Shown here: positions 52,424 through 55,633 of the stretch, one piece after another
How positions within the stretch are numbered: the stretch's first letter is position 1
Layout of the letters: every line of letters begins with the position of its first letter
Assembly (NCBI GenBank): GCA_903866915.1
Contig: CAIPPO010000040.1
Location: 1 to 57,167 of the forward strand
From: an uncultured Mucilaginibacter sp.
Lineage (GTDB): Bacteria; Bacteroidota; Bacteroidia; Sphingobacteriales; Sphingobacteriaceae
Length of the DNA: 57,167 nt
Reading direction: 5' to 3'
Translations under genes and position numbers: made by a program
The notes under the pieces: model-generated
Told to the model about the DNA's origin: nothing
The model's database searches: none
The model's input: the letters and a program-made list of their open reading frames with translations, nothing else

Positions 52424-53998
52424 CTACCTCCCCTTCTTCAGCTTCAAAACCTTATTCATCACCATACCATTGAATTTGTTTCTTTCAAAGACCCTGGCAG
52501 ATTCATGACTTGCTCGTAATGCTAAAGACTGCCCGGGCAGCCTCTGTGTTACCGGCGATTTAACCGCATAGGTGCCAGTTTTAACATAATTCAGTACATG
52601 GGCCAACAATCCTTCGCCTGGGTCACCAAAATCTTTGGTTACGTCGTCATAATCTCCCACACCCGGATAGGTACTGGTGCCCGGGGTAAAGCCTGAATAA
52701 TAACCACCCTGCCCTGCGGAGTTTTGCGTATAAAATTCTGGCGTGTACATTTGGTAAACATTAATATCGATATCAAAAAAGCCAACCGGCTTGCCATAGC
52801 TGGTTTCACCTACAAATTGCACATTTAATTCAGGTCGCAGGTTATTGATCGTTAACTCACTTGCAGAGGCAGTAGAACCGGTTACAATAAAGAATACCCT
52901 ATTTACAGCCAAAGTTCCCTGTTTAGAAAAAGTGACCGCATTACCGGCAACTGAATAGTCAAATTGCGCATAGTTATAATCCTGCCCTGTGGTCGGATCG
53001 TGGCGCCACTGGTTTTTCAGCAAAGCCTCCTTATTATTTTGAAGTGTAGTATTATAATAGGTATTGTACATCAAAGTACCCGACTTGGCGGCAGGTACGA
53101 TCAAATTATCCAGGTATTCGGCAGTTGACACATAACCACCACCATTATAACGCAGATCAACTGCGAGATCGGTTACGCCTTTGTTTGTGAAATAAGTAAA
53201 AGCAGCATCCAGTTGCGGACCGGCATTGGCTTCGGAGGTAAAACTGTTAAAAACGATATAGCCTACAATATGGCCGTTTCCTTCGTCGAATGTTGTATAC
53301 TTTAATACCGGGTTAACTGTATAGTTGGCCACGGCCATATTAGTTACCGTTAACGTGGTGCCATCCGGTTTTAACAATGTCATTGAAATAGTATTGCTAT
53401 TTGAATAGGCATTGATAACAAAATTCAGGTTTGTGCTGTTACCATTAACTTGCGGGCCATCGTAAGAAATACTTGTATTCCCGTTGATGCTTGTTATTTG
53501 GTAACCGCGCTTTATACCAGCCAGATCAGCGGGCGAACCGGGGTAAACATATTTTATCCTCAGGTCATTGATCAGGTTGTACAGTGGTGCAAAGCCAAAA
53601 TCTCCGCGTGTACCATTCAATTCTGCAGATACCTGGCCATTATCGATAAAGGAGTATTTGGCATCGCCCTGGGTATCATAATACTCATAGGGCTGCCCGG
53701 TTGCCGGGTTGATAGCAATTTGCGAGATAGCATTTAGCTCATTAGTTAAGGCAGTAATATCATCTGCTCCGGTATAGCTCCGTGGCTTAAATGCTGCATA
53801 GGTAGGCAATGCATTGTACCATAAATAATCTTCCTGTGCATACAGGAATACCGAATCTTTAATCCTATCCAGCGTTGAGCCGGCGTCATTCGGACTAATT
53901 GTGGTAGTATTAACTGTACCAGTATTTTTAGGGCTCTTTTTACAAGCCGCCATCAATACAGCGGAAAGGATTAAAAGAGAGTAAATAATTTTTTTCAT
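52424..53998 (-). CDS. S41-family (C-terminal processing) peptidase lipoprotein
   Basis: 524 residues. Lipobox MAAC (Cys near 18) predicts lipid anchoring. A PDZ-like segment spans about 150-225 (YPGSPADLAGIKRGYQITSINGN), followed by the S41 catalytic domain: DLRYNGGGYVSTAEYLDN near 285, nucleophile Ser in VTGSTASASELT near 370, and catalytic Lys in GETSYGKPVG near 397. It would cut unfolded or tagged proteins at the outer membrane or periplasm. I start at ATG 53998, eight codons inside the longest frame, because signal peptide MKKIIYSLLILS begins there. Single gene. Confidence 0.88.
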   Translation of the reverse strand: MKKIIYSLLILSAVLMAACKKSPKNTGTVNTTTISPNDAGSTLDRIKDSVFLYAQEDYLWYNALPTYAAFKPRSYTGADDITALTNELNAISQIAINPATGQPYEYYDTQGDAKYSFIDNGQVSAELNGTRGDFGFAPLYNLINDLRIKYVYPGSPADLAGIKRGYQITSINGNTSISYDGPQVNGNSTNLNFVINAYSNSNTISMTLLKPDGTTLTVTNMAVANYTVNPVLKYTTFDEGNGHIVGYIVFNSFTSEANAGPQLDAAFTYFTNKGVTDLAVDLRYNGGGYVSTAEYLDNLIVPAAKSGTLMYNTYYNTTLQNNKEALLKNQWRHDPTTGQDYNYAQFDYSVAGNAVTFSKQGTLAVNRVFFIVTGSTASASELTINNLRPELNVQFVGETSYGKPVGFFDIDINVYQMYTPEFYTQNSAGQGGYYSGFTPGTSTYPGVGDYDDVTKDFGDPGEGLLAHVLNYVKTGTYAVKSPVTQRLPGQSLALRASHESARVFERNKFNGMVMNKVLKLKKGR

Positions 53999-54060: not shown

Positions 54061-54684
54061 TTATGATCGGATTGGCTTAAATTCATTCATTTTTACAAAA
54101 TCAATACCCGAAGCTTCGGCACAATGGGCATCAATATCGCTATTGCCAAACATGATCAGGTTTTTTCGTTGCAGAGAATGTTGGTGTATCATCAAATCGA
54201 TACAGTCTGTTTCAGGTTTTGGGGCTGTTTCATTGGCAAAATAACAGATGAGATATTGTTCCAAACCATGCCATTCCGTTTGTTTAATTTTATTAAGTTG
54301 TAATTCGGGGTCACCATTGGTAACTATAAAAATCTGTTTCCGGTCTATCACAATCTCCTGAAGCAACTTAAGCATATCCTGATATAACAAAAGCTTCAGT
54401 GGCAGTTTCGCGGTTCGGCTCAAATGGTTGAAATTGGTCCGATATTTTTCATCCAGATTAAATTTACTCTTCAAATTATCAAAAACCATTTGTTTACCTT
54501 CAGCCAGGTAGGTATTTGTCATCAACTCGGTAGCAGCTTTTGCATCCATCATTTCGGTATATTCAAGGAAACTGCTGAACAGGTAATAAACCTGCAACCA
54601 ATAATCCTTTTCAGGATATAGCACATCATCCAACTCAAAAATAAAGGCATTTTTACGCCCGTCTAAGTCACTGTATCTGATCAT
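54061..54684 (-). CDS. HAD-like protein with degenerate catalytic motifs
   Basis: 207 residues with the HAD Rossmann fold and cap (about 30-95). Motif I reads FIFELDDVLYP: the nucleophile position is Glu17 instead of Asp, while Asp19 is kept. Motif II Thr is present (IVTNGDPE), motif III Lys is present (APKPETD), but motif IV reads MFGNSDID, with Asn where Asp is expected (GDS). Two metal/phosphate-binding acidic residues are thus altered, so phosphatase activity is doubtful. It is the last gene of lolD - preATP-grasp - HAD; its start overlaps the gene before it by 17 bases. Confidence 0.8.
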   Translation of the reverse strand: MIRYSDLDGRKNAFIFELDDVLYPEKDYWLQVYYLFSSFLEYTEMMDAKAATELMTNTYLAEGKQMVFDNLKSKFNLDEKYRTNFNHLSRTAKLPLKLLLYQDMLKLLQEIVIDRKQIFIVTNGDPELQLNKIKQTEWHGLEQYLICYFANETAPKPETDCIDLMIHQHSLQRKNLIMFGNSDIDAHCAEASGIDFVKMNEFKPIRS

Positions 54685-54976
54685 TAACTACGATGCTGAT
54701 GCCATATTCGGCAAATAGTTGGGCTGAATTTAATAATAAAACTTGTTCCTGTACCCTCAGAGGGCATATTTTGTTGATATTCCGGTTAAGGCAAAGTGTC
54801 AAAACCTGATGTACGTAGCTTGTATCGAGAGGATTTGGTAATCGGATCATTTTGCCGGTATTGACCAGGAATTCGGGTAGCGCTTCAAAATCACCCATTA
54901 AAACAGGCTCGCCGTGCAGGGCAGTTTTAAGCACATAAGCTTCCGCCGAATTTGCGCAGGTGATCAATGTATACAT
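54668..54976 (-). CDS. Stand-alone preATP-grasp-like domain protein
   Basis: 102 residues. The sequence LITCANSAEAYVLKTALHGEPVLMGD, then LPNPLDTSYVHQVLTLCL and NKICPLRVQEQVLLL...EYGISIVV follows the N-terminal preATP-grasp (Rossmann-like) domain of carbamoyl-phosphate-synthase-like ATP-grasp enzymes, but no ATP-grasp domain follows. It is either a truncated relic or a domain kept for its own role. It starts 3 bases after the lolD stop and overlaps the HAD gene by 17 bases. Start is ATG 54976; a TTG one codon upstream is possible. Family call is by resemblance only. Confidence 0.62.
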   Translation of the reverse strand: MYTLITCANSAEAYVLKTALHGEPVLMGDFEALPEFLVNTGKMIRLPNPLDTSYVHQVLTLCLNRNINKICPLRVQEQVLLLNSAQLFAEYGISIVVNDQIQ

Positions 54977-54979
54977 CAA

Positions 54980-55633
54980 TTATTCAACTATCGATCCGTC
55001 TCTCATGATTATCTTCCGGTCGGCCAGGGCAGCCAAATGCTCGTTATGCGTAACGATGACAAAAGTCTGGTCAAATTCGTCGCGTAAATTTTTAAATAAC
55101 TGATGCAATTCATTGGCATTGGCTGAATCGAGATTACCTGAAGGTTCGTCTGCAAAAATTAGCGAGGGGCTGTTGATCAATGCTCTGGCAACTGCTACGC
55201 GTTGTTGTTCACCACCCGAAAGCTGATTAGGTTTGTGACTGAATCTATCACCAAGTCCTAATCTTTCTAATAATTTCTGTGCTTTTTGCTCTGCGACACT
55301 CCGCGATGTCCCAGCAATCAATGCGGGGATACAAACATTCTCTATGGCGTTAAATTCCGCCAGCAGATGATGAAACTGGAAAACAAAACCGATCTGTAAA
55401 TTGCGATACGCGCTCAGATCACGGTTGCTCAAACCACTAACCACCGTATCCCCTATAGTCACATTGCCAGAATCCGCTTTATCCAGCGTCCCTAAAATAT
55501 TGAGCAAAGTACTTTTTCCAGCACCGGAAGCACCGAGAATGGTTACTATCTCACCTTTTTTCACTTCCAGGTCGACATTCTTTAAAATTTGCAGCTGTCC
55601 GTATGATTTTTGTATAGCTTTTGCTTTGAGCAT
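54980..55633 (-). CDS. lolD: LolD-type ABC transporter ATP-binding protein
   Basis: 217-residue ATPase of the LolD/MacB family. Walker [10 protein letters not shown] near 34-42, signature [15 protein letters not shown] near 138, Walker [14 protein letters not shown] near 158, H-loop VTHNEHL near 193. In Bacteria this ATPase drives LolCE in release of lipoproteins from the inner membrane, or related MacB pumps; the permease is not adjacent. First gene of a left-running operon with the preATP-grasp and HAD genes. Its promoter box ends 4 bases before the ATG, predicting a leaderless mRNA. Confidence 0.9.

Follow-up and report, generated by a model that had tools for sequence, protein, structure and literature searches.

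The window analysed here, a 57,167-nucleotide stretch of DNA from an uncultured Mucilaginibacter sp., contains a compact set of minus-strand genes in which a HAD-fold protein follows a PylC-like pre-ATP-grasp domain encoded on its own (Table 1). Translation of the HAD interval on the plus strand meets five stops, which places the reading frame on the minus strand, a point on which the initial annotation is silent. A lolD-type gene is the first of the putative operon and ends at 54980; the pre-ATP-grasp frame can start with a TTG at 54979 or, more likely, with an ATG at 54976, and its last 17 bp are shared with the start of the HAD gene. From this layout, co-expression of the HAD with lolD and the pre-ATP-grasp domain is plausible. 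The S41 peptidase gene lies about 60 bp downstream of the HAD. We use lolD as the nearest name for an ATPase that falls below the equivalog cut-off (best family TIGR02211, 266 bits against 307.75). The order lolD, pre-ATP-grasp, HAD, S41 recurs in Mucilaginibacter, Pedobacter and other genera. Counting only distinct sequences that extend far enough on the side in question, lolD precedes the HAD in 156 of 176 and S41 follows it in 99 of 119.

Table 1. Features of the lolD-HAD-S41 region, in window coordinates.
Feature	Coordinates	Strand	Basis
lolD-type ABC transporter ATPase, 217 aa	54980..55633	minus	NCBIfam LolD_lipo_ex, E 1.9e-79
PylC-like pre-ATP-grasp domain alone, 102-103 aa	54668..54979	minus	ORF; profile match to N-domain of full partners
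Probable HAD-fold pseudo-phosphatase, 207 aa	54061..54684	minus	ORF; Pfam HAD_2; AF2 model; PDB folds
HAD codon 17, GAG (Glu), position of the nucleophile Asp	54634..54636	minus	Sequence; orthologue conservation
HAD codon 181, AAT (Asn), position of the first motif IV acid	54142..54144	minus	Sequence
S41-family peptidase, predicted lipoprotein	52424..53998	minus	Pfam Peptidase_S41 and PDZ

By fold the protein belongs to the HAD superfamily, having a Rossmannoid HAD core and a C1 cap. The Pfam HAD_2 family covers residues 15-197 with a score better than its curated cut-off (E 1.8e-14), the AlphaFold2 model has a mean pLDDT of 91.7, and this model aligns with capped HAD structures in the PDB at Z of about 16 over 184-193 residues. 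Fold and motif spacing are shared with C1-capped phosphatases such as the N-acylneuraminate-9-phosphatase NANP/HDHD4, YfnB and the beta-phosphoglucomutase type, from which the window protein differs in having Glu for Asp, Asn for the first acid of motif IV and an identity of 12-18%. Among the residues that mark a HAD phosphatase, the second Asp of motif I (D19, at +2), the motif II Thr (T122) and the motif III Lys (K156) are present. The nucleophile Asp of motif I is missing, its place being taken by Glu17, and of the Mg-binding acids of motif IV D185 alone is left, Asn181 having replaced the first.

How widely these changes are shared was read from 193 distinct HADs, 13 encoded beside a full ATP-grasp gene and 180 others. 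All 13 of the former have Asp17, and 12 of the 12 in which the first motif IV place is readable have an acid there. Among the 177 other orthologues in which site 17 is covered (it is uncovered in three of the 180), Glu occurs in 157, Gly in 11, Asp in 4, Ala and Thr in 2 each and Cys in 1, whereas position 181 is Asn in 62 of the 180, Ala in 44, Asp in 7 and other residues in the rest. The initial annotation, which read the protein as a probable pseudo-phosphatase, conserved but catalytically altered, is thus upheld by both codons, and the residues of the orthologues argue for the same view; of the two replacements whose conservation it proposed to check, Glu17 is conserved far beyond chance, and the motif IV Asn is not strictly kept. 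Homologues with the normal Asp in both places, which would have spoken for a local mutation, were looked for, and only the four mentioned have Asp17. In two of these the first motif IV acid is replaced (ENSETD in L027, GHTEND in L169), in L211 the region reads GNSEIR, and in L232 no motif IV is recognisable. The description of motifs II and III as intact holds for the window protein but not for many relatives, particularly Pedobacter-type sequences, in which these motifs are degenerate.

Within Mucilaginibacter, site 17 is Glu in 60 of 61 sequences, encoded equally by GAG and GAA (30 each), and Asp (GAT) in one. One base change in either Glu codon would give Asp, so Glu is being kept, or Asp avoided. 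The strictest positions of the family (Q31, Y33, L35, P24, D27, P95, L98, N131, K132, W138, E152 and D19) do not amount to the catalytic set, of which N181 ranks only 163rd of 202 positions by conservation. D19 is present in 176 of the 177 orthologues (99%) and Thr122 is 88% conserved, a sign that the pocket may still support some chemistry or contact a ligand.

The gene is a near-constant feature of the family. Of 251 Sphingobacteriaceae genomes, 240 have the HAD, nearly always in single copy, and these carriers represent 22 of 25 genera. All 37 Mucilaginibacter genomes of the first genus search have it as well, and a class-wide sample of 295 genomes gave only four matches outside the family. 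The PylC-like domain was found in 61 of 61 genomes of the genus and 199 of 201 of the order. Two genomes depart from this pattern: one (G105, locus L147) keeps lolD, HAD and S41 with the partner domain absent, and in another (G088, L148) lolD and the partner domain are present but the HAD search gave no match. The remnants thus do not depend strictly on each other. In one further locus (L137, G225:C44:26344-26915) the HAD orthologue is split by a frameshift and has internal stops, reflecting either a pseudogene or an assembly error.

The upstream gene, which the initial annotation had left as an unexplained orphan, can now be given an origin. It lacks the ATP-grasp domain with its Lys and ExNPR residues and consists of the PylC-like N-domain alone. 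In four groups of genomes, a gene of 350-359 aa encoding an ATP-grasp protein stands directly upstream of a motif-complete HAD: L107 (family f61), L123 and L237 (g46), L124 (g47), and L129 and L220-L222 (g34). Full partners scanned with Pfam contain PylC-like N and ATPgrasp_Ter domains, and the preceding gene encodes a PIG-L deacetylase. Compared as profiles, the remnant domain and the N-domain of these full partners match over 105 columns at a probability of 96.3%, and with the intact pairs this identifies the orphan as the eroded N-terminal domain of the HAD's original ATP-grasp partner. BLASTP of the remnant domain against a Flavobacteriales ATP-grasp (L061) gave no match, the relation being drawn from profile comparison with the nearer partners only.

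The PIG-L, ATP-grasp and HAD modules (L123, L124, L129, L149 and, in f61, L107) are predicted to be active, the words active and intact meaning here that motifs are complete as read from sequence. Their HAD and N-domain are homologous to those of the window and lie in the same gene order, but they retain DxDxT, TNG, KP and G(D/E)..D together with a full ATP-grasp, whereas the window pair is without either active site. Between these extremes lie graded intermediates. The partner alignment shows FKP..NGSRGF and EINPRVQGT in full partners of 350 aa; the FKP..NGSRGF and EINPR residues are gone from partners of about 300 aa (g28) and 230-290 aa (g26, g41), and the shortest partners measure about 160 aa (Pedobacter, g39) and about 100 aa (Mucilaginibacter). 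In g34, g46 and g47 lolD lies within about 3 kb of the intact set, so the arrangement in the window looks like decay in place. The full ATP-grasp was found in only 8 of the 251 Sphingobacteriaceae genomes, and no intact partner turned up in the rest of the genome to which the window belongs, which is 92.7% complete. A HAD paralogue in that genome (G000:C66, L092) was considered as the source of the pair and rejected, as it has an intact DLDNT and is only distantly related. In one genome of g28 (G087), an eroded pair linked to lolD (L150) exists alongside a separate set in which PIG-L, ATP-grasp and HAD are all intact (L149).

Trees of the HAD were built with column 17 left out, in a 101-taxon and a careful 40-taxon version. 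HADs with eroded partners form one clade (SH-aLRT 100 with 101 taxa; support 100/99 with 40), the intact HADs of g34, g46 and g47 are its nearest outsiders, and the Asp17 members L027, L169, L211 and L232 are separate tips nested inside it. Forcing these four to group with the intact HADs, a constraint chosen after the first tree was seen, costs 308 log-likelihood units and is rejected (p-AU 9e-59). A single clade with nested Asp tips is therefore explained most simply by one change from Asp to Glu at its base, the direction of the root depending on the outgroup; the later changes at site 17, to Gly, Ala, Thr, Cys and back to Asp, would most simply be scattered events.

Loss of catalytic residues has been accompanied by constraint on the protein. 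For close, unsaturated pairs (those with negative or very high dS were left unused), most dN/dS values of the HAD lie in the range 0.06-0.23, those of the remnant reach 0.26 and those of lolD are 0.01-0.09. The HAD thus combines a conserved loss of catalytic residues with purifying selection, the mark of a pseudoenzyme. In one Mucilaginibacter subclade (L095, L096) an inversion has parted lolD and the pre-ATP-grasp gene from HAD and S41, which now lie 12-14 kb apart and run in opposite directions. Both frames are intact after the inversion, and the HAD has a dN/dS of 0.08-0.23 in related genomes with the inverted arrangement.

We consider it most likely, with a probability of about 0.72, that the HAD is a pseudoenzyme which, with its eroded ATP-grasp partner, derives from a once-active module and has been kept by selection in a non-catalytic role. 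It would descend from a functional C1-capped HAD phosphatase whose gene stood next to those of an ATP-grasp ligase and a deacetylase of the PIG-L type. In an ancestor common to most Sphingobacteriaceae, Glu would have replaced the nucleophile of the HAD and the ATP-grasp partner would have lost its ATP- and Mg-binding residues; the partner would then have been shortened stepwise towards its N-terminal domain, with selection subsequently retaining both remnants. Because the remnants have been kept across the family despite their lost chemistry, they probably work by binding and not by catalysis. Their most likely present role is non-catalytic: the HAD fold and its PylC-like neighbour would act as a binding or scaffold pair, co-expressed with lolD, whose candidate targets are each other, the old phosphorylated substrate or an envelope partner. 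The data show the descent of the pair, its loss of catalytic residues, its conservation under purifying selection and its linkage in an operon; that the HAD lacks phosphatase activity, that the two remnants touch and that they bind a ligand are what we infer.

The near-invariance of D19 and the retention of Glu17 in 60 of 61 Mucilaginibacter sequences, with Asp one base away, could also be taken to mean that these two residues perform other chemistry, as metal ligands or a general base, with no phospho-aspartate; pseudoenzymes with migrated catalytic residues are on record (PMC10211241). We regard such an altered enzyme as unlikely, since lineages of the same clade have Gly, Ala, Thr or Cys at site 17, and in the non-Glu lineages motifs II, III and IV decay too. 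Use of Glu itself as the nucleophile of an active phosphatase is very improbable. The fold is well kept and T122, K156, D19 and D185 are present, but the first motif IV acid has gone as well, orthologues with Gly or Ala exist, and Asp is found in every HAD beside a full ATP-grasp; a Glu nucleophile is not an established feature of HADs. A mutation or sequencing error peculiar to one strain might be suspected in a draft assembly of 237 contigs, and is ruled out by Glu17 in dozens of independent genomes.

It is also conceivable that the remnants have no function of their own and persist merely by lying between lolD and S41 in one transcript. The conserved gene order and the faster evolution of the partner domain relative to lolD would fit such passengers, but purifying selection, and reading frames intact in nearly all of the 240 carrier genomes, would not. 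Retention of both remnants after the inversion separated them, with frames intact and the HAD still constrained, also counts against this explanation, which we judge quite improbable. Returning to a retained, non-catalytic pair, a bolder version would have a two-enzyme module with both active sites lost in one lineage turned into a pair of non-catalytic proteins serving the Sphingobacteriaceae envelope, which might, for instance, detect the former phosphorylated glycan intermediate and regulate the lolD transporter or act as its adaptor; we offer this as speculation and consider it rather unlikely.

The nearest described parallel to the window pair is AtITPK4, a plant inositol phosphate kinase in which an atypical HAD is fused to an ATP-grasp kinase; no phosphatase activity was detected for this HAD, and a regulatory role has only been proposed (PMC7614388). 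Both systems place a HAD fold with altered motifs alongside an ATP-grasp partner. In AtITPK4, however, the ATP-grasp part is functional and DES stands at motif I, whereas in the window both members are eroded and encoded by separate genes. A possible analogue of the ancestral activity is provided by Campylobacter jejuni, where the ATP-grasp domain of Cj1438 forms an amide bond on glucuronate (PMC11800379) and where a paper in the reference list of that study concerns a HAD phosphatase from this capsule pathway, so that ATP-grasp and HAD occur within one glycan pathway. The likeness is one of pathway make-up; the Cj1438 ATP-grasp is TupA-like, not PylC-like, and no pseudoenzymes are involved. 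Literature searches on this pair, on pseudo-HADs in Bacteroidetes and on lolD neighbourhoods found nothing, subscription journals being thinly covered.

Pseudoenzymes that occur singly are familiar; what is surprising here is the joint loss, two partners from one pathway having apparently died in the same lineage. Both remnants have lasted as long as the bacterial family itself, and as intact, intermediate and minimal forms are still living, they offer a natural series in which the order of chemistry loss in a module, and its later use, can be followed. The gene is present in over 200 of the genomes searched, for which the plain label of HAD hydrolase would probably be wrong in function.

The surroundings of related modules add some detail. 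At three loci the intact PIG-L, ATP-grasp and HAD set is separated from lolD by a gene of about 505 aa (L140:8374-9900, L141:3083-4597 and L142:1995-3509), with no Pfam match in the two scanned. More distant intact ATP-grasp and HAD pairs lie in glycan clusters: the Flavobacteriales pair L061 adjoins PIG-L and a glycosyltransferase, and L108, L109 and L110 adjoin NeuC- or NeuB-like genes, so named by reading the sequence without a family search. In L109 and L110 a sugar-epimerase-like part is joined to an ATP-grasp part and is followed by the HAD and a NeuB-like gene, and it is possible that these two loci encode a sialic-acid-type pathway with an extra ligase step.
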